In this document: piece by piece, positions 7,492 through 53,339 of the stretch
Position numbering within the stretch: position 1 is the stretch's first letter
Layout: every line of letters begins with the position of its first letter
Origin: Schizochytrium sp. TIO01
Taxonomy: Eukaryota; Sar; Bigyra; Thraustochytrida; Thraustochytriidae
NCBI GenBank assembly: GCA_004764695.1
Contig: SMSO01000037.1
Coordinates: 3,036,337-3,100,336 of the forward strand
DNA length: 64,000 bases
Direction of reading: 5' to 3'
Translations under genes and position numbers: made by a program
The notes under the pieces: generated by a model
Seen by the model: only the letters and a program-made list of their open reading frames with translations
What the model was told of the DNA's origin: nothing
The model's database searches: none

Positions 7492-8569
7492 CGTGCCGCA
7501 GAAAACTGTAGTCTAGAAATCAATTTCTGCTATCAGCTCTAGTTTCTAAATATATATCTCAAGAGCACAATAGGCTCTTTGTCTCTCAACTATGAGCTCG
7601 CCAAGCCCCGGCGGCCGGCAATCAAAGAATGTATGCAAGTTCTGGCATTCTCGATGGTCTTCTCAGGACCGTCTCTGCTAGAATCTGCTCCTATTATTTA
7701 TTATAGCCAAGGTCTTACGGTTGTAGACACGCCCAGGTGGTTAGTCCATTAAGAAATCATATAAGGAAAAGGATAAGAGTCCAAGCTGAAAAGACAGCGG
7801 AATAGAGAGAGAAATAGGGAGTCGTTACACAGAGGGGAACACAGGGAGTTAGTTGTGAATACAGATTTTGACTCCAGAGCCAAATTTTCGTTTTTGATTC
7901 CAAGACAGTGACAAATATTGAAGAGAGTGATGATGCCATGGTACGATTGTTGGTTAGAAAGTATGTTGAAGCTGCAAGGGATGCAGATTTGGTTCAGGAG
8001 CAACACAGAAAGATTGCTGGAATAATTGAGGAAAGTATAGATAACATCAGGATTGAAAGGGTATCCTGATGGAACATCGTGGAGTCAGGAAATTGCGCAG
8101 GGACTATGAGTAGTAAGTTTTTTGGCATATTAAAGAAGGGATTTCGCAACATGCTATGATTGATGCTGATACGGGGTGGTAATAGGAGAACACTGGACAT
8201 ATAAAAGTAACTAAAAAATCATTATTTTTTTTCTTCAATGGTTCATTCAATGATGAAATATTTTGAGCAAAATTTTCACAAAAGCTACCTGAGATGGTAT
8301 AGTAGCCAGCAGGAAGCATACCTTACATCAGGAGCAGATGTCTCCAAATACGAGAGGCTAACTTGTATTTGGGTGGCGATAATTGTGCGCTGTTTCTTAT
8401 GAGTGAATGGATGAATGGATGAATGAGTGATTCCACACGAGCGAGACTTTTAAAATTAATGTGAATTAGAATTTCACTCAGTTGTATAAATTTGTCAAGT
8501 ATAGACCACAACATGGCAAATTTTGGTCACGTTAGAGATAGATAGGTAGGTACCGATTTATATCCCATT
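7492..8569. other. Intergenic, upstream of kinesin
   Basis: Contains the kinesin promoter on the minus strand. The plus strand is purine-rich from ~7760 to 8110 and holds a short open frame at 7871-8068 (see findings). No firm gene. Confidence 0.45.
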
Positions 8570-28938: not shown

Positions 28939-31713
28939 TTATTGGCGGATGGCCTTGTCCAGAGAGCGCTGCATGGAGGCGTTAACATCGCCATCCTCGC
29001 GGGCAGGGAACGGGAAGGACTCACCGGTGATCTTCTCGTAGAGCATGATGTAGCGGCGGGAGAGCTCAGCGACAAGGTCGGCAGGGGCCTCAGGAAGCAC
29101 CTCGTCCTTGTACGGGTCGCAACGCTCCGCGTACCAGAGACGCACGAACTCCTTGTCAACGTGCTGAGGGCTGCGTCCAGCCTCAACGTTGGCGGCATGG
29201 GTTTTATCGTCACCCACCCAGTAGCGAGAGCAGTCGGGGGTGTGGATCTCGTCAATGAGAAGGATCTCGCCGGTCTCGAGGTCACGGCCGAACTCGTACT
29301 TGGTGTCCACGAGGATCAGTCCGTGCTCAGCAGCGGTCTTCTGGCCAAACGCAAAGAGCTCCTGGGCCTTGGCGTGACAGAAATCCCAGTCCTCCTTGTT
29401 CATCCATCCATCACGCACAATGGTCTCGGCATCGATGAGCTCATCGTGCTCGTCACTCTTGGTGGTTGGTGTACACAAGTTCTTCTCAAGCTTCTGGTTC
29501 TTCTTAAGTCCATCGGGGAGCTTGTAGCCACAGTACTCACGCACACCCTTGTTGTAGTGAGTCCACATGGAGGTGCCAGAGCTTCCGGCAATGTATCCAC
29601 GCATGACGAACTCAATCGGGAAGGTCTTGCAACGGCGAGCGAGAGTAAGGTTCGGGTGCACCGGATTGGCCTTGGAGTTGGACGGGTGAAGCTGGTTCTT
29701 GATGATGTGCTCAGTCTTGCTGAACCACCAGAGGGAGACAAGGTTGAGCACAGCTCCCTTGAAAGGAATCTTGGCAAGCGGCCTGTCGAAGGCAGTCAAG
29801 CGGTCCGTAGTCACGAGCACCACGTTGCTTCCATCGTCGTAGCGGTCGCGAACCTTACCAACGTACTTGGCAACCTCAGTCTGACCATTCTTAGGGGTAA
29901 GGTGGAGGTCAGTGGCGTCAACAGTGTGTCCAATTGAGGCATAGATTCTGGGAAGGTATGCGTAAGTCTTGTCCTTGTTGGTGTACTCCTTCAGGTACTG
30001 CTCGTACTTGACGTTCTCAAGGTGAGCCGCCTTCTCATAGACAGCATCGCGCTGGTCCGCGTGGTACGCATCGAGCTGCACACGGAGTCGAGCTGCAAGG
30101 CTTCCTTGAGCTGCTGCGAGCATTCTGATGGCCAAGAGTCCGGCGTTCATCGAGTTTCCAATAGCGACTGTCGCCACTGGCACACCCCTCGGCATCTGCA
30201 CAATGGAAAGAAGGGAGTCGTTTCCACTCAAAGTTGAGGTTTTCACAGGCACTCCAATCACAGGGAGCGGTGTGAGCGCGGCAACCATACCCGGAAGGTG
30301 GGCGGCTCCACCTGCTCCAGCAATGATGGTCTTGATGCCACGAGCCTGAGCCGCCTTGGCGTACTCGTACATGCGGTCTGGGGTGCGGTGAGCAGAGACA
30401 ACGGACAGCTCGAAGGGAACTCCGAACTCGGTGAGCACGTCGGCGGCAGCGCGCATCGTCGGCAGATCCGAGTCACTGCCCATGATAATGCCCACGACGG
30501 GGGCCTCAGAGCTCGAGGACTTGGAGGGGCCAAAGTTGATGACATCAGAGGGGTCAAGCGGCTCGTTGAGGAGCACAAGGCGACGGCGGAGCTCGGGCAT
30601 GTCGGGGGCGGTGACAGTAATGTGACCGAGCTTACGGCCGGGCCTAGAGTCCTTACCGTACCAGTGGATCTTGGCGCCAGGCACAGAAAGCGCAGGCTTG
30701 AAGGAAGCAATGGTCTCCTCTTCAGTGGCAGCACCAAGAATGTTGATCATGGCGGCAGCACCGACGCGGAGGCTAGTGTCACCAAGCGGGAGGCCAGAGA
30801 CAGCGCGAAGGTGCTGCTCAAACTGAGAGGTCACACATGCCTCAATGGTGAGGTGGCCCGAGTTGTGCGGGCGTGGGGCGATCTCGTTGTAGACGACGCG
30901 GTCGCCACCCATCCAGAACATCTCCACAGCAAAGACGCCAGCACCCTGAATAGCGCTCACGGCAAGCTCTGCTACACGCTGGGCCTCGACGCGAGCAGCC
31001 TCCGGCAGGTTGATGGAAGGCGGCACCACAACCACGCGGCAAATGTTGTCGGCCTGACGGGTCTCCACAACATCGTAGCAGACAGTGTTTCCCTCGCGAT
31101 CGCGAGCCACGATGCAAGCAAGCTCAGCCTCAAAGGGAGCCCACTTCTCGAGGTACACGCCGCCAACTTCCACAGCCTTGCCGAGGCTGCGCAAGGCCTC
31201 CTCGATACCTTCAGCGTTCTTGACCACAGCATTTCCGCGGCCGTCATATGCCATGCATCGGCTCTTGAGCATCACAGGGTATCCGCCGAGTCTGTTCTCA
31301 GCTGCGTCACGCACAGCGTCAACAGTGGCGTCCACCTTCTCGTAGTCGATGATGGGGACACCAGAGGCGCCCATGACGTCCTTTTGAACTGCCTTGTCAG
31401 CAATAATGCGCAGAGCAGACGGCGACGGGTGCACGGGGCGTCCCTGACGCTCGAGCTCCTCGAGAGCGTCAACGTTCACGTGCTCAATCTCGACGGTGAG
31501 GACATCTCCAGAAAGGGCGACCACGGCGTCGCGGTCCATAAAGCTACCCTTCACCACGCGGCAAACCGGGGCAGCAGAGGCCTCAGCGCCAGAGGGGTCC
31601 AGGCACACGAGGTCCAAACCAAGGCGTGCACCATCAAGGGCCATCATGCGTCCAAGCTGGCCGCCGCCCAGCACGCCTACGGTGCGAGCCACGCCGTCGA
31701 TGCGGTTGGCCAT
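28939..31713 (-). CDS. Trifunctional purine enzyme PurK-PurE-PurC (924 aa)
   Basis: Three consecutive-step domains in one chain. Residues 1-385 are PurK (N5-CAIR synthetase, ATP-grasp): [12 protein letters not shown] at 13-24 and [11 protein letters not shown] at 277-287. Residues ~405-550 are PurE class I (N5-CAIR mutase): GSDSDLPTM (412-420), SAHRTP (440-445), [11 protein letters not shown] (466-476). Residues ~612-922 are SAICAR synthetase: [24 protein letters not shown] (710-717) and [10 protein letters not shown] (821-830). Together they convert AIR to SAICAR in IMP synthesis. Fungal Ade2 is PurK-PurE only and animal PAICS is PurC-PurE, so this K-E-C order differs from both. No targeting peptide is obvious. 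The ATG is the first of the frame and the DNA is GC-rich with no intron. A long antisense open frame here is a by-product of codon bias. Confidence 0.95.
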
Positions 31714-40072: not shown

Positions 40073-41153
40073 CTTGCGAAACTGCGTATTCCGCACTCAA
40101 GCAACCTTGATGTCTTTCGCTTGGTGAAGAGAGCAGGTCAAGATATTTAGCTTTTGTCCTCCAGAAACCAACAAGATGGATTGAAGCAAGAACGAGCCGT
40201 CGAGTGGCCCAAAGTTCGAGATAGCCAACCAGCCAGCAGCTCAGGTTTCACTCAACAAAGAAGCAGCGAGCTTCTGCGAACAACCTTCGCTACGAGAGTG
40301 ATGGGGTACTGCGAGCGGGGTTCACCGATCTCGAGAAGCTCAGTGAGCCTCTGAAATCTCCCAACCAGGATTTGGGCTCAGCTTGGAGACTTTACGATTT
40401 GCGACTTTATAATCATAATTTCAATTATTAAAGTTACTGGCGAATAGAGAGGGATTCCTTATTTCTTTTAATTGAAAGAAAAACAGGGAAACTTGTTTCT
40501 TACTTTCGATCAATGCTGCGCTTCAGCTTGAAACCATCGATAATGTAACTTTTCTTATTTTTAATATTACAAATACAATCTCAAGATCGTTACATGAAAC
40601 TTGTGAAACCTTTTCGAGTTTAACGTCTATAAGGTAGTTTTTATAACGAATCTGGGGAGTGGAATAGCTTGAAAGTAGAATGTCGGCATTTAATAATGGT
40701 GCTCGCGACATACTTCGTAGCCAGCGGTCTTGTAAGCCAGAAAGCTTCTAGCTCTGATGAAGACTGAGCAAAATTGCTTACCACCCACCCAGCTTTCGCT
40801 TTAAGCTTCAGCTTTGTTTTGTTTTGTCTTCAAGCGGCAACAGCAGTAGTAAGTACTCTATTATACAAATTTATATTGAATGATTGAATGAAAATATGTG
40901 GAATTGAGAATCGCTGGTCAGGCACGTCATACCTCGAACTGCACTCGCGACGAGGTCCGAGTTGCTGTTCTTTGATCTGCGACGCGGCTAAGGTCGTTTC
41001 GGACGGTCGTTGTGCTCTATCTCGGGCACATTCTCGGTGCCGTTGTCTTCTGTCTCCAGTGCTGAAGTCGCTCCTCCAGACATTTTACTGGACGGGGCTG
41101 CCGTGGTTTAGCTCATCGTGGGGAGCTCCTGATATCCGAACAGAACAGAAATC
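40073..41153. other. Divergent intergenic region
   Basis: Must contain the promoters of the M50 protease (-) and the desulfurase-TtcA gene (+). AT-rich in the middle (40390-40700), with no repeats of note and no further gene. Confidence 0.5.
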
Positions 41154-44100
41154 ATGAGCGACGTAGAAAACCTTCCCAAACCAGAGTCTGATGTAGACAC
41201 TAAGATTGCTGAGGATAGCAAGCTTCCCCGTGCGTCTGACACTGCTGATCCCGAGGACATGATGGACGAAGAGGATGGCGACGCCTTTCGCCAATTCGTA
41301 GACGTAGACAATGTTCACGAAAGCAATGCCTCTAAAAATGCTCTCTCTGCAGGACAGACCTTCCAGCGACTTCGCGAAAACGTTGTAGGTGCTTTTAGCC
41401 CTGTGGAAACCCCTTTTGGCGAGAAACCTCTCATTTATGCCGACTGGACCGCCAGCGGTAGAGCCTTCGCCCCACTAGAAACCTACATTCGCGACAAAGT
41501 GTACCCCTTCTATGCTAATACCCACACTTCTACAAGTATTACTGGACTGCAAAGCACATGCTTTCGAACTGAGTCTCGCCAGATTATTCAGCAAGCCGTT
41601 AATGCCAACACCCGCAAAGATGTGGTGCTTTTCACTGGCACTGGCGCTACAGGAGCTGTGAACAAGCTGGTCTCGGTATTGGGCCTCGATGTCCCTCTTC
41701 GTATGGATCAGCCGACGCAAGCTCGTCCTGTAGTCTTTGTCGGGCCTTTTGAGCATCACAGCAACCTCCTTCCGTGGCGCGAGTCCAATGCGGAGGTTGT
41801 CACTGTTCCAGAGCGTGAGGATGGCTGTGGAATTGATCGGGTTGCTCTCGAGAAACTCTTAAAGACGTACGTAGATCGACCTCTCTTGGTGGGAGCTTTC
41901 TCAGCTGGTTCGAATGTCACTGGAGTTCTCGAGGACGTCGACCGTATCTCAGCGATCCTGCACCGCCACGGAGCTTTAGCATGCTGGGATTATGCTGCTG
42001 CCGGCCCGTACGCTCGTATTGACATGAACCCTGTTCTTGCTGGAGAAGACCCCGATCGGCCATTTGCCTATAAGGATGCTGTGTTTCTATCTACACACAA
42101 ATTTGTGGGTGGCCTGAACACACCTGGTGTTCTTGTCGCTAAAAAGAAGCTTTTCGGTAATGCGGTGCCTGGCGCAGGGAACGTCGGAGGTGGCACTGTC
42201 TACTTTGTGCGCGAGGATGGACACCGCTATATGTCGAACCGTGTTGAGCGCGAGGAAGGTGGTACTCCGGACGTTGTTGGTGCGATTCGTGCGGGCCTTA
42301 CCTTCCAGCTCAAGCAGAATGTTGGTTGGGAGAACATTGAGAAACGTGATTGTGAGCTTGGCAAGCGTATTGGATCGAAGCTCGGATCCCATTCAAACCT
42401 TGCTTTGCTCGGTCCTGAGTGGCAAGAAGAAGCCCGTTTGCCAATCGTGTCTTTCTTGGTTCGCCATGAGTCTCGGTTCTTGCACTACAACTTTGTATCT
42501 GCTGTATTGAACGACGTCTTTGGCATCCAAACCCGTGGTGGCTGCATGTGTGCTGGCCCGTATGCACAGCGCCTCCTTGGAATGTCGCAGGCTTCCGTTG
42601 AGGCTGTGGAGGAGGAACTCCTCCTCAACCCAAAGCATTCTGAATATCTTCGTCCAGGATTCACCCGCTTCAGCCTATCATATTTTGCTAGCGATGCAGA
42701 GGTAGACTACATTCTTGATGCTGTTTGCGCCGTAGCTGATCATGCCTGGAAGCTTCTTCCACTGTACCGTTTCAACACCCGAACTGGCGAATGGAAGCAC
42801 CGCACTCGCTTCACCAAATTCCCTGGTCGTCTTTGGCTGGACGATGCTAATTTATTGGGCGAGACCTCTTCTGAAGAGAATATTCCTTCAGAAGGCCAAG
42901 CTAGCGCACCTGACTTCACCAAACTCTTTAGCGAGTGTGTTGAGCAAATGCACGCTGCTGTTGCTGAGGCTGAGAAAGAGACAGTTGCAGATCAAACAAA
43001 GCTTTTCACCCCTGAGGCAGCGGTGCTTCGTTGGTTTGTCATGCCTTCCGAGGTGCACAAGGAACTCAATCAAGAAGCTTCTGCCAACGGAGAATCAGCA
43101 GCTACTGGTAGCTTAATGCCTTCTGCAAAAGATACCTCTTCCCCCGCGCAAGAATCTGTGGTCGGTCCTATTGACCCGTACAAATACTGGGCGCAGATCC
43201 GGGAGGGTCTCCCTGTGCAGCCAGCGTCAACAAGCAAGAGCGATGACGGCTTAACAGATGCGGAACGTGCGCGCAAGCGTGCTCCCGAAATGGAACAAGA
43301 GCCGGCCAAGCGTGCCAAGACTGGCAAGAAAGACTTTATCTGTGAAGACAACTCGTGCTTTCGAATTCGTAAAAGTGACAAGTATCCCTTGCGCACAACG
43401 GAGGTTATTCGCAGCGGTCAAGCGCAGCTGATGGAGCAAAACCCTGGTGAGACTATCAAGGTCGTTGATGAAGCAATTGTGCAGGCTGCTCCGCAAAAGA
43501 TTTTGCGACCCAAGATCCCCAAGGGTATCTTGAAGAACGTTGGCAAGGCTTTAGCACAGTGGGACATGATCCAGGATGGCGACCGTCTGCTTCTCGGACT
43601 TTCTGGCGGTAAGGACTCTCTAGCTCTGCTTCATGTTTTGCTCCATGTCCAAGCCAAGGCACCGGTCAAATTTGAGCTCGCCGCTTGTACGATTGACCCA
43701 ATGACTGAGGCATTTGACCCAAGTCCTCTCATTCCCTATATGGAGTCTTTGGGTGTCAAGTATCATTACATGAAGGAACCTATTTTTGACAAAGCAAAAT
43801 CTGGCTCCCTTCGCGGTACTTCAATCTGCAGTTTCTGTGCTCGGATGAAGCGCGGTGCTCTCTATACATGCGCCCGCGAGCATGGCTACAACAAGCTTGT
43901 TCTTGCTCAGCACTTGGATGATCTGGCAGAGACCTTGATGATGGGTCTCTTCCACAATGGTGTGGCACGGTCTATGATGGCCAACTACGAGGAAAAGAAG
44001 GGAGATGTTCGTGTGATTCGCCCTTTGGCCTACGTTCGTGAACATGAAACCAAGGACTTTTCGTATGCTGCCAAGCTTCCTGTAATCAACGAGAACTGCC

Positions 44101-44354
44101 CCGCTTGCTTCGAGGCTCCGCAGGAGCGCCAGCGTGTGAAACGTTTGCTGGCTAAGGAAGAGGCTACTTGCCCAGCTCTCTTTAACAGCTTGCGTAGAGC
44201 CCTTGTGCCTCTTATGGATGCTGATCTCCTGGAGAAGATGGCTGAGGTCACAAAGGAGCGCCAGCAACTGTCCAGTATTCAACAGCGCCGTATCCGTTCA
44301 GCAGTACATAAAGATCAAAAGGTAAAGCAGGACACACCGCCCGAAGAATCATGA
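41154..44354 (+). CDS. Cysteine-desulfurase-like aminotransferase V fused to TtcA-type tRNA thiolase (1066 aa)
   Basis: Residues ~65-540 are a class-V PLP enzyme: TGTGATGAVN (161-170), the Schiff-base Lys316 in STHKFVGG and a cysteine loop RGGCMCAG with Cys464 and Cys466. Residues ~540-780 are a linker with DQTKLFTP, RWFVMPSEV, a basic RKRAPEMEQEPAKRAK stretch resembling a bipartite nuclear signal, and a Cys pair (FICEDNSCF). Residues ~785-1020 match TtcA throughout: PP-loop SGGKDS (817-822), CSFCARMKRG (Cys892, Cys895), AQHLDDLAET, VIRPLAY, and NCPAC followed by ERQRV. In bacteria TtcA uses an iron-sulfur cluster to make 2-thiocytidine at tRNA position 32, with sulfur from the desulfurase IscS. 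Here donor and thiolase appear to be one chain. The first ATG is used; single exon; no mitochondrial presequence seen. Domain calls are firm; the linked reaction is inference. Confidence 0.9.
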   Translation: MSDVENLPKPESDVDTKIAEDSKLPRASDTADPEDMMDEEDGDAFRQFVDVDNVHESNASKNALSAGQTFQRLRENVVGAFSPVETPFGEKPLIYADWTASGRAFAPLETYIRDKVYPFYANTHTSTSITGLQSTCFRTESRQIIQQAVNANTRKDVVLFTGTGATGAVNKLVSVLGLDVPLRMDQPTQARPVVFVGPFEHHSNLLPWRESNAEVVTVPEREDGCGIDRVALEKLLKTYVDRPLLVGAFSAGSNVTGVLEDVDRISAILHRHGALACWDYAAAGPYARIDMNPVLAGEDPDRPFAYKDAVFLSTHKFVGGLNTPGVLVAKKKLFGNAVPGAGNVGGGTVYFVREDGHRYMSNRVEREEGGTPDVVGAIRAGLTFQLKQNVGWENIEKRDCELGKRIGSKLGSHSNLALLGPEWQEEARLPIVSFLVRHESRFLHYNFVSAVLNDVFGIQTRGGCMCAGPYAQRLLGMSQASVEAVEEELLLNPKHSEYLRPGFTRFSLSYFASDAEVDYILDAVCAVADHAWKLLPLYRFNTRTGEWKHRTRFTKFPGRLWLDDANLLGETSSEENIPSEGQASAPDFTKLFSECVEQMHAAVAEAEKETVADQTKLFTPEAAVLRWFVMPSEVHKELNQEASANGESAATGSLMPSAKDTSSPAQESVVGPIDPYKYWAQIREGLPVQPASTSKSDDGLTDAERARKRAPEMEQEPAKRAKTGKKDFICEDNSCFRIRKSDKYPLRTTEVIRSGQAQLMEQNPGETIKVVDEAIVQAAPQKILRPKIPKGILKNVGKALAQWDMIQDGDRLLLGLSGGKDSLALLHVLLHVQAKAPVKFELAACTIDPMTEAFDPSPLIPYMESLGVKYHYMKEPIFDKAKSGSLRGTSICSFCARMKRGALYTCAREHGYNKLVLAQHLDDLAETLMMGLFHNGVARSMMANYEEKKGDVRVIRPLAYVREHETKDFSYAAKLPVINENCPACFEAPQERQRVKRLLAKEEATCPALFNSLRRALVPLMDADLLEKMAEVTKERQQLSSIQQRRIRSAVHKDQKVKQDTPPEES

Positions 44355-46297: not shown

Positions 46298-47401
46298 TAG
46301 CTCCTACATAAGAAGAGTTGAACACGGTTCGTTACTGTGAGCAACTCGGCGTGGGTACCCGTGCTTTTGAGTTTCCAAGCTTAATAAGCGTCGACAAATC
46401 AGGTATCCAAGGTTAGCATTCAGCTCTTCCAAATGCCTATGTAATTGGAAACATCATTTGTGCTCCGCCATGCTACCTACCCCATACCGCTGCTACTAAT
46501 ACTAGCTAGCTAGGCAGAAGAAAGAAGTCCTGTGTGTTAACAGTCTTTCCGTGGCCCACTGTGGGTACGGCTGCTTAGTAGGCGCTTAGGGACTATTTCT
46601 GGCTCAGGAGCACGGCAGTTGACGTACGCGGTTAGAATCGCTTTCGGGTTTGAGCTGCTCCAAAAGATGCTCCATAAGGACCCCGAAAACTTCCTAATCA
46701 TCGCGTACCCTTCGCATGCCGTAAACCACGGAGCAACAGCCATCCCAAGTAAGTTTTCAACCCACCCCGAATCGCTCTTCGCGTTCCCAACACCACTAAT
46801 CGTTCCGAAAGTCGGAGCCTCCACCTTGGCAGAGAAAGGCCTCTTTATCGTCTTGGAGCCATGTCATTACACCACTTTCGGATTCCACTGAGCGCTCAGC
46901 CATTCGAGGACCCTTCTGCGCGGACGTATCCTTCTGCTTCCGCCATCAAACGCCATCGTCAGTCAATCTGAAGATATGGTTTCTGTCACAAGTCAATCCG
47001 AATTGGAGGCATCATAACAGACACTGACGCACTCACTCATGAGAGCAAAACACAAATAAACAGATAAATAGTTAAAATAATTAATTAGCCGTGGCGCTCA
47101 CTTCTCTCTCCCATCGAAAACCTGGAGAACCAAGCGTCATCTCGCAAACGAGTCATCGCCGCCCATCGCAAAGATCGCAATGGACCTGAAGGCTTTTCCG
47201 GGAGCATCGCAAGCTCTCGAGCAGAGTCATCCATGCCTCAGCCAACCAACCATCCAACCCAAATCAACTTGCTGTCTTGGGGCCTGGTCCCCGAGTACCA
47301 ACCCCAATGAATTCTAATTCTCCGGTGCCTTTTCCCCTTCTTTCTCTTCTTTTAATCTCGAACTTACTATTACAGTACACACCCTGAGCTGGCTTTGAGC
47401 G

Positions 47402-47436
47402 CATACATACATACATACATACATACAATACATACA

Positions 47437-47467
<31 letters not shown>

Positions 47468-47797
47468 CATACATACATACATACATACATACATACATAC
47501 ATACATACATACATACATACATACATACATACATACATACATACATACATACATACATACATACATACATACATACATACATACATACATACATACATAC
47601 ATACATACATACATACATACATACATACATACATACATACATACATACATACATACATACATACATACATACATACATACATACATACATACATACATAC
47701 ATACATACATACATACATACATACATACATACATACATACATACATACATACATACATACATACATACATACATACATACATACATACATACATACA
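47402..47797. repeat. Long (ATAC)n microsatellite, about 396 bp
   Basis: Roughly 99 tetranucleotide units, with two small interruptions near 47427 and 47437 and otherwise essentially perfect. It is open in several frames as Tyr-Ile-His-Thr or Met-Tyr-Val-Cys repeats, which are not genes. Confidence 0.97.
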
Positions 47798-48137
47798 GTG
47801 TGATACACACCATGAAACCTGGTATTTCTTCGGCGGAGACACGCTCTCCCACCGTCCTGCGGACACCTCTGAAGCGATGGGGACCCGAACCAGCCTCAGG
47901 TTCTCCATCTCTTCACCTGTATTATTTCGATTTCGATTTCGTCTCCCTGGTTCACGGGCCCTTTTTGCCGAATAGTTCCTCATCAACTTACAACATTATA
48001 ACTTTTTAATTTTTTATAATAGATGGAAATAGCCGATGGAAAGCCAGGTTGAAAGAAAGAGACCATGCTGATGATTCCCCTTTTCAATCAATAGCCATGC
48101 GATAGGAGACCCTAGTCCCGATCCAGTGCAACGGCGA

Positions 48138-51232: not shown

Positions 51233-53339
51233 ATGGCTAACTCCAAGGAGATTCACCCCTCTTCGGGCAAGAAGCCTGAAGACGTGGAGATGGCAATGCA
51301 AGGTCTGCGTGACGGCGTTATTGGCGCTTTTAAGCCGGCCCAGACCCCATTTGGTCTCAAGCCTGTGGTCTATGCCGATTGGACTGCCAGTGGTCGTGGA
51401 TACGGTCCATTGGAAGACTACATCCGTAATAAGGTTGTACCGTTTTATGCTAACACACATACGACATCTTCTCTGACGGGTCTTCCAGAGTACTCTCTTT
51501 CGTGAAGAGGCTCGCAAGATTATTGGAGACTCTGTCCACGCGACGAGTGATGATCTCGTCATCTTCACTGGCACTGGTGCGACGGGAGCTGTGAACAAAT
51601 TGGTTACCCTCCTTGGACTTGACTTTAGTGGACGTCTGGATATCCGCGAAAGCGCACGCCCAGTTGTCCTGGTTGGACCCTTTGAGCATCATAGTAACCT
51701 TCTTCCGTGGCGTGAATCCAACGCAGAGGTTATCAATGTTCCCGAGCGCAAGAACGGGCCAGGTGCTGATCAAGAAGTTCTTGAACAACTCTTGAAGCAG
51801 TACAAGAACCGCCCTCTGATTGTTGGCTCCTTCTCAGCTGGCTCAAATGTCACGGGTGTTCTTGAGGATGTCAACGGCGTCTCTAGCCTCCTCCATCGCT
51901 ATGGTGCACTCGCTTGCTGGGATTACGCTGCTGCTGGCCCGTATGCTCATATCGACATGAACCCGGAGCTTCCGAAGAATGACCCGAACTATGGACTGGC
52001 CTACAAGGATGCAGCTTTCATTTCTGTACATAAATTTGTTGGCGGCCTCGGCACTCCAGGTGTTTTGGTAGTCAAGAAGAAGCATTGCACTACTGTTGTT
52101 CCTCACGCTGGAAACATTGGTGGTGGCACTGTGGCCTACGTTCGTGAAGACGGCCAACTTTATCTTCATAATGCCATTGAACGCGAAGAAGGTGGTACTC
52201 CGGACATTGTCGGCGCGATTCGCGCAGGTCTAACCTTTAAACTCAAGGAATCAGTTGGTTGGGAGAACATTGAAAAACGAGAAGTGGAGCTGGGTCATCT
52301 GGTGAACTCCAAGCTGGGTGCACATCCCAAAATTTCTCTGCTTGGGCCGAAATGGGGCCAAGGCCCTCGCCTGTCGATTGTGACCTTTGTTATTCGCCAC
52401 GGCAATAGATTTCTGCATCATAACTTTGTCTCAGCTGTGTTAAATGACATTTTCGGCATTCAAACACGTGGTGGGTGCATGTGCGCTGGTATCTACGCAC
52501 GGCGTGTGCTGGGCATTGATTACAAATCGCTGCTTGCCATGGAGACAGAAATGCTCAAGCAACCTGAGATTGCAAGCTTCATTAAGTTTGGTTTCACTCG
52601 ATTCAGCCTGTCGTACTTTGCCAGCGAAGAAGAGGTGAACTTCATCCTTGACGCTGTTCTTGCCGTGGCTGATCATGCCTGGAAGCTCCTTCCCTTGTAC
52701 AGGTATAACACTCACACTGGTGAGTGGAAACACAAATCTCTGAGTAATGAGACCTTGGACCAACTTTGGCTCAAGGACGCAGAGCTCTTTGATGCACAAG
52801 GCCAAAAGCAGCCTTTGGATACTGTGGATTTGCTTCAGAGAGGTCCGACGCCGGACTTTGATCACCTATTGGCCCAAGGAATCGAGGACATGGTCAAAGC
52901 TGCAGAATCGTCCAAGGTTGAGGTACTTGAAGACCAAACCAAATCATTTACTCATGAAACCAACAATATGCGCTGGTTTGTCTTGCCCTCGGAAGTGTAT
53001 TCTCAGATTTGCGAAGACCGTGAGGCAGCTTTGACTTCGGAGACATTTGGTCCAATCGACCCCTCGCGCTATGAATTACTCAGAGCCACCGAAATGCCTC
53101 ACCAGTATCAGCAAGACATCGAGACTATCTCTGTGGAATCTATGTCGGTTTCGTCGGATATCAGCTCTGATAGCCCCAACATGCGCAATCTGTCATCCGA
53201 CGGTTTTCACAAACCGGCCGCAGATGAGCTGAAGAAGAAAACCATTTCAAAGAAGAAATCCTCCGGAAGCAGATTCTTTGGATGGCTTACTCAACTCCGT
53301 AAGCGTGAAACTCAGCTTGCGATTCAAGTCAGAGCTTAA
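51233..53339 (+). pseudogene. Desulfurase-like paralogue without TtcA, with one +1 frameshift
   Basis: Close paralogue of the PLP half of the upstream fusion gene. The first frame (51233-51505) covers the N-terminus through YADWTASGRGYGPLE and FYANTHTTSS, then meets TGA at 51503-51505. From ~51492 a second frame continues with LFREEARKII, TGTGATGAVN, SVHKFVGG (PLP Lys), RGGCMCAG and on to 53339. Aligning with the paralogue, one extra base near 51491 explains everything; the rest is intact for more than 600 codons. The shared linker DQTKSFT...RWFVLPSEV and GPIDP is kept, but the chain ends in a basic Lys/Arg-rich tail in place of the TtcA domain. The start is an ATG with an ordinary context. 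It may be a young pseudogene, an assembly error, or use a recoding event at TCG-TGA; intact codon structure argues against old decay. Confidence 0.75.

Follow-up and report, generated by a model that had tools for sequence, protein, structure and literature searches.

A stretch of 64,000 nucleotides from the thraustochytrid Schizochytrium sp. TIO01, called the window here (contig SMSO01000037.1, our C36, in an assembly of 64.06 Mb and 37 contigs), carries a gene in which a class-V pyridoxal phosphate (PLP) module resembling the cysteine desulfurase SufS is joined to a PP-loop module resembling the tRNA thiolase TtcA. Both modules lie in one ATG-to-stop frame of 1,066 codons (3.2 kb; window 41154-44354, forward strand) that has no interruption and is preceded by an in-frame stop at 41130, just 5' of the ATG. 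Pfam places Aminotran_5 at residues 94-519 (E 1.7e-31) and ATP_bind_3 at residues 812-977 (E 5.3e-15), and because of its 3.2 kb length and these two full domain matches the frame is not a product of chance. Codon log-odds were calculated over 60-codon windows, with eight other large frames of the window as the training set. They are above zero in the fusion frame in all windows up to residue 1050, linker included, and exceed those of the other five frames over the same range. The GC content of third codon positions (GC3) is even, with 0.49 for residues 1-690, 0.53 for residues 691-780 and 0.54 for residues 781-1066, and codon use is host-like across the junction of the two halves. The original prediction, made from the letters of this DNA, had described one uninterrupted frame, had named Lys316, Cys464 and Cys466 in its first half and had noted a cysteine pair in the linker. 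We confirm the fusion of a PLP and a TtcA-like module in one frame; the three residues lie at the positions named and the linker pair is present as Cys730/Cys735. The features of the gene are:

41154..44354, + strand: whole fusion gene, 1,066 residues, a single open frame (open reading frame and codon signal)
41154..41357, + strand: acidic N-terminal extension, residues 1-68, no targeting-like sequence (charge, start of the bacterial matches)
41358..43073, + strand: SufS-like class-V PLP module, residues 69-640 (Pfam, NCBIfam, bacterial relatives aligning over about residues 69-640)
42099..42101, + strand: Lys316, presumed PLP Schiff-base lysine (identical in 66/66 rows)
42543..42551, + strand: Cys464-Met465-Cys466 loop, Cys466 aligned with the SufS loop Cys (alignments; both Cys in 66/66 rows)
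43074..43493, + strand: linker, residues 641-780, about 140 residues, shared with tandem paralogs to about residue 660-690 and then divergent
43272..43331, + strand: basic stretch like a bipartite nuclear localization signal, residues 707-726, weak (shuffle test)
43341..43358, + strand: linker Cys730 and Cys735 (sequence)
43494..44264, + strand: TtcA-like PP-loop module, residues 781-1037 (Pfam, NCBIfam, alignment, tree)
43602..43619, + strand: PP-loop SGGKDS, residues 817-822 (alignment with E. coli TtcA)
43827..43838, + strand: Cys892 and Cys895, corresponding to Cys122 and Cys125 of E. coli TtcA (20/20 rows)
44097..44108, + strand: Cys982 and Cys985, corresponding to Cys210 and Cys213 of E. 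coli TtcA (19/20 and 20/20 rows)

Among the NCBIfam models, SufS fits the PLP half best (113.5 bits). The best PDB sequence matches of this half are desulfurase chains, mostly of the SufS type, and Cys466 stands opposite the SufS loop cysteine in two PDB-chain alignments. A scan of prokaryote genomes with a 460-residue PLP query yielded 101 relatives, 80 of which were kept (L010-L089); they share 43-53% identity over the query and carry titles from Myxococcota, Actinomycetota, Acidobacteriota, Chloroflexota and Proteobacteria among others. Stop-to-stop frames of 560-600 residues were counted by hand in 51 of the 80. Bacterial matches start at residues 56-72 of the fusion, whose N-terminus has a net charge of -14 over residues 1-60 and is not targeting-like. 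For the alignment two of the 80 loci were dropped by length and N filters and the rest were thinned to 65, giving 66 rows together with the fusion. His202, Asp279, His315, Lys316, Cys464, Cys466 and Arg505 are identical in all rows, so that the PLP lysine and the catalytic cysteine of SufS both have invariant counterparts (Lys316 and Cys466), and Arg461 is kept in at least 97% of the rows. Position 282 is Ala in 61 rows, the fusion included, Cys in four and Ser in one. The loop reads RGGCSCAGP in 77 of the 80 bacterial frames and GCFCA in one, and two frames were caught at an earlier RGG; since Cys464 and Cys466 are invariant in the bacterial relatives, the RGGC-x-CAG loop is a mark of the PLP family. 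We therefore reject the earlier proposal that the two loop cysteines form a sulfur relay special to the fusion: both are present in all 65 free-standing bacterial relatives aligned, and TtcA is neither beside nor joined to the PLP gene at any of the 80 loci. Judged by its sequence, the PLP half is a member of a SufS-like family that has no name and is not proven to consist of desulfurases.

The second half scores 219 bits with the TtcA model, 65 with TilS, 49 with NcsA (NF047749, cut-off 500) and 43 with TtuA. Its alignment comprises the fusion, E. coli TtcA and 18 relatives from bacteria, the latter 26-36% identical to the fusion; the PP-loop, Cys892, Cys895 and Cys985 are kept throughout the 20 rows, and one row lacks Cys982. 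The available part of a review gives residues 122, 125 and 222 as the cluster ligands of TtcA; residue 222 of the E. coli K-12 TtcA sequence is not a cysteine. Closer relatives (E <= 1e-52) were found in two of 398 Pseudomonadota genomes, with 56% and 49% identity. In the family of the first of these, 97 of 100 genomes hold a close TtcA-like gene (49-59% identity), and none of them shows the PLP half at E <= 1e-40. A 36-row tree, for which the program warned of long branches, the fusion's included, and of an unsettled bootstrap, groups the fusion with the close proteobacterial set (100/99), away from E. coli TtcA and the majority of the remaining rows. The score below the family cut-off and this grouping make the TtcA half a member of a subfamily rather than the curated equivalog, and this proteobacterial subfamily looks rare. 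The Schizochytrium genome itself has no second match to the TtcA half at E <= 1.

Several observations were made on TtcA relatives along the way. The neighbor of the fusion clade in the 36-row tree, L145 (genome G029), is a TtcA-like protein on a long branch; it has the stretch CWWCSWNRRKAL and lacks the first Cys of the second cysteine pair, and perhaps represents another subfamily. Among 20 hand-picked genomes of the proteobacterial family with the close TtcA-like genes, several with short flanks only, 12 share the gene order msbA-like, TtcA-like and class-V aminotransferase of the alanine/serine-glyoxylate type (L189, L190, L192, L197, L199-L204 and L206-L210; names by eye). We did not count this aminotransferase as a source of the fused PLP half, to which its similarity is weak (best E 1.6e-4 over 51 residues). 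Long frames of up to 887 residues at close TtcA relatives were likewise discarded as fusions, as the seven that were read (L199-L204, L209) owe their additional residues to an arginine-rich frame running across the msbA-like gene upstream. E. coli ttcA (L146 11014-11949) is located at the border of the Rac prophage, and ttcA or a piece of it occurs on 38 IMG/VR contigs (L147-L184). With the fusion as query, the viral contigs gave no relative of either half.

We favor, with moderate confidence, that the gene encodes a self-fed [4Fe-4S] tRNA thiolase, which would probably be cytosolic and would most likely act on C32; this base is our default guess because of the kinship with TtcA. Cysteine would bind PLP on Lys316, and Cys466 would take its sulfur as a persulfide, or sulfide would be released. 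The TtcA module would bind ATP through its PP-loop and adenylate the 2-position of the tRNA base, and sulfur would then be inserted via a [4Fe-4S] cluster held by three of the four cysteines 892, 895, 982 and 985. Tethering of the modules may shorten the path of the sulfur, and a linker of about 140 residues could let them meet within one chain or across a dimer partner. In the available parts of the literature (PMC10067955 among the sources), TtcA, TtuA and NcsA are described to pass sulfur on through a three-Cys [4Fe-4S] cluster, and [4Fe-4S] thiolases are said to take it from sulfide or from a donor (PMC10067955). Desulfurase activity, the cluster, the hand-over of sulfur, the target base, the location and every chemical step are what we infer from the sequences. 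The idea of a sulfur donor and a thiolase in a single chain, independent of the mitochondrial desulfurase, is upheld as far as both modules with their conserved residues, an N-terminus that is not targeting-like and a separate NFS1-type gene are concerned; its desulfurase part is not established. A nuclear localization signal in the linker was rejected as too weak, as the same pattern appeared in 268 of 2,000 linker shuffles.

A number of findings weigh against a self-fed thiolase. The PLP half stays far below the SufS cut-off of TIGR01979 (113.5 versus 475 bits), and the NF007972 cut-off for TtcA (272 bits) is reached neither by the TtcA half (219 bits) nor by the whole chain (215 bits), with E. 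coli TtcA at 514 bits. In place of DQxxPG and GHH, which most rows share and which are marks of TtcA by our own reading of the alignment, the fusion has DPMTEA and AQH. As the fusion falls below the TtcA cut-off and lacks both stretches, its target base could differ from C32. The domain announced as a full TtcA thus holds in its SGGKDS motif and in both cysteine pairs, which align with E. coli TtcA, but not in being full. At the position of Ala282, both SufS-type PDB chains have the Gln of a DxAQ stretch; the roles of individual SufS residues, this Gln included, are general background to the comparison. Desulfurase-like chemistry of the PLP half is therefore plausible but not established, since the catalytic residues are kept and Ala stands where SufS has Gln.

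The bacterial context of the PLP family points in the same direction. Gene calls for neighbor clustering had missed the PLP gene in 18 of the 80 loci, so the count was redone on all frames, and the recurrent neighbor is a regulator of the Lrp/AsnC type (18/80). At 13 loci with gammaproteobacterial titles, some genera of which we presume to belong there, it is found upstream, within a distance of about 100-350 bases, and is transcribed divergently from the PLP gene. A TtcA relative (E <= 1e-3) is present near the PLP gene at none of the 80 loci, within up to 8 kb on each side and less at contig ends. Searched as a whole, 28 of the source genomes contain a TtcA relative above 100 bits in 12 cases (13 including one partial); both halves share a contig in three, with the nearest pair about 134 kb apart. 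In the phylum of the L011 genome, 42 of 112 genomes have a PLP relative of at least 300 bits and 31 of these also a TtcA relative at E <= 1e-20 (both counted by eye), the two lying on the same contig in only one genome and megabases apart. Neither a fusion nor an operon uniting the two halves was found in the bacterial DNA searched, and a link between them in bacteria is not borne out by the 80 loci or by the genomes holding both. The halves are separate genes in the bacteria examined, and the data give no support for an older partnership.

This context also bears on the strongest alternative, which we regard as possible though clearly less probable than a self-fed thiolase: the PLP module may act on amino acids as a lyase or an aminotransferase, as part of a class-V family without a name, and share its chain with TtcA for regulation or by chance, while TtcA draws its sulfur from the general pool, as NFS1 persulfide or sulfide. 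The Lrp/AsnC-type neighbor suggests amino-acid metabolism as the setting of the bacterial family, and it is this neighbor, together with Ala282, that keeps the PLP half from counting as an established desulfurase, although its class-V PLP family and most of the catalytic positions examined are as expected. Genes of the cysteine-synthase-like PALP type flank the PLP gene at seven of the 80 loci, and in four Halomonas/Vreelandella loci a flavoprotein gene follows 3' of it, with transporter-like genes further along (by eye). None of the nine genomes among the 28 that come from loci titled Actinomycetota-type matches the TtcA part above 100 bits, and four show weak matches of 21-38 bits. The Schizochytrium genome moreover has a class-V gene of the NFS1/IscS type (L090) with a mitochondrial-looking N-terminus (by eye), which could supply such a pool. 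However, the PLP lysine, the loop cysteine, His202 and Arg505 are identical in all 66 rows, the PALP neighbors may hint at cysteine as the substrate, and, on general grounds, unrelated reactions seldom remain fused with their key residues intact.

A further alternative concerns the target. The fusion could have taken over the role of Urm1-Ctu1 (Ncs6) and thiolate U34, or U34 together with C32, of cytosolic tRNAs with its own donor, which we consider quite unlikely. ATP_bind_3 (PF01171) matches only the fusion and one TilS-type protein in the 64 Mb genome, and the NcsA model only the fusion (44.6 bits). Urm1 (PF09138) gave no match in the genome at E <= 1 and zn-ribbon_14 (PF16503), which we take to be part of CTU1, none at E <= 0.1, the latter being a weak probe whose control matched five of 14 genomes and none over the cut-off. 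CTU1/NCS6 and URM1 were thus not found by six-frame searches with these four models, which can miss genes with short exons; the NFS1-type, TilS-type and fusion genes, which were found, are single open frames in the same genome. Still, the module is far nearer to TtcA than to NcsA (219 versus 49 bits), and the organism may simply be without 2-thiouridine at position 34 (s2U34).

The PLP part of the fusion has two tandem paralogs without TtcA, about 7 kb and 23 kb past its end:

51233..53339, + strand: paralog 1, PLP module with the beginning of the linker, one frame break near 51484
L008 7341-9609, beyond the window: paralog 2, PLP module, one frame break near 8210

The paralogs share the linker up to about residue 660-690, and one tblastn match stretched to residue 754. 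Compared with the fusion piece by piece, their nonsynonymous divergence (dN) is 0.29-0.33, and synonymous change is saturated or nearly so. The PLP fold has therefore long been under constraint, which speaks against old pseudogenes and suggests that the one break in each frame reflects recent decay, an error or something else. In a PLP tree with 33 of the 65 bacterial rows, which the paralogs entered as pieces only, all three eukaryotic copies fall into a single clade (100/100) with a long stem. That the fusion is an artefact of assembly or gene model, or a decaying gene, is very improbable: the frame break in each neighboring paralog points to some flaw in the assembly or in the cluster, but no break interrupts the 3.2 kb of the fusion frame, codon signal and GC3 are uniform along it, and the branch of the fusion does not stand out as long beside those of the other two eukaryotic copies (0.21 versus 0.44 and 0.17). 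In the simplest history, a PLP gene of bacterial type was duplicated in tandem and a TtcA-like gene was joined to one copy; alternatively, the TtcA part may have been lost from the other PLP copies.

Other observations in the genome concern tRNA and neighboring genes. The TilS-type (lysidine synthetase) protein is itself part of a second tRNA-enzyme fusion, with DUF924, in one 761-residue frame:

L102 670-2955, region of G000:C31:3421114-3421692: DUF924-TilS fusion (domain searches)

A tRNA scan scored 63 matches out of 2,627 candidates; those on contig C15 are repeated about 41 kb apart and C37 carries several more, a pattern to be expected if an organelle genome had been assembled more than once. 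Within the window, a 924-residue frame at 28939-31713 (reverse strand) reads by eye as PurK-PurE-PurC (SAICAR synthetase), a three-part purine enzyme, and 47264-48009 is a long run of a short tandem repeat that translates as YVCM from one strand and as YIHT from the opposite one.

The fusion can be compared with several known systems. With TtcA (NF007972) it shares SGGKDS, both cysteine pairs and the best family match, whereas it lies below the cut-off, belongs to a proteobacterial subfamily, is fused and occurs in a eukaryote. Its PLP half is by sequence of the class-V PLP family and has the PLP lysine, the position of the loop cysteine and the His and Arg positions of SufS and other group II cysteine desulfurases, but differs in its low score, the CxC loop, Ala for Gln and a longer C-terminal part. 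ABA3/MOCOS (NifS-like plus MOSC) likewise unites, in one eukaryotic chain, a sulfur donor of the class-V PLP type with an acceptor domain that inserts the sulfur, although a molybdenum-cofactor sulfurase takes the place of the tRNA thiolase. The available part of PMC8931425 describes ABA3 as cytosolic, with an aminotransferase class V desulfurase domain and a MOSC domain that inserts sulfur, and reports that a fusion of desulfurase and rhodanese from the bacterium Pseudorhodoferax was shown to be bifunctional; such fusions are also natural unions of donor and acceptor, but with rhodanese as the acceptor. Ctu1/Ncs6-Urm1, according to the available parts of PMC5372717 and PMC10067955, carries out eukaryotic cytosolic tRNA thiolation with an Fe-S PP-loop enzyme, as is predicted for the fusion. 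Unlike the fusion it uses sulfur as Urm1 thiocarboxylate and has zinc-finger motifs, and it was not detected in this genome. We recognized no published description of a PLP-TtcA fusion in the open-access literature among the matches listed; available parts of PMC5372739, PMC5372745 and PMC7694415 were also drawn on. What appears to be new is thus a sulfur donor-acceptor fusion with a new acceptor, the layout itself having precedents in ABA3 and the desulfurase-rhodanese fusions.

If the favored function is correct, sulfur mobilization and tRNA thiolation would be combined in one chain, and sulfur transfer to a [4Fe-4S] thiolase could be traced in one purified protein. This matters because the reaction and the sulfur donor of these thiolases are described, in the available parts of the literature (PMC10067955 among the sources), as not fully understood. 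The fusion would also be a eukaryotic source of 2-thiocytidine (s2C), which a 2020 review, in its available part, assigns to Archaea and Bacteria only and which a 2017 review, equally in part, lists for Bacteria and Archaea with TtcA as the enzyme of E. coli. Beyond this, a eukaryote without a detectable Urm1-Ctu1 relay may thiolate its cytosolic tRNAs by one self-fed enzyme made of two bacterial-type parts, which we consider unlikely but of interest because of the apparent CTU1/URM1 gap in the genome. In that case s2C, or a replacement route to 2-thiouridine, would exist in a eukaryotic cytosol, the ubiquitin-like sulfur carrier would be dispensable, and the organism would offer a natural test of life without Urm1-Ctu1.

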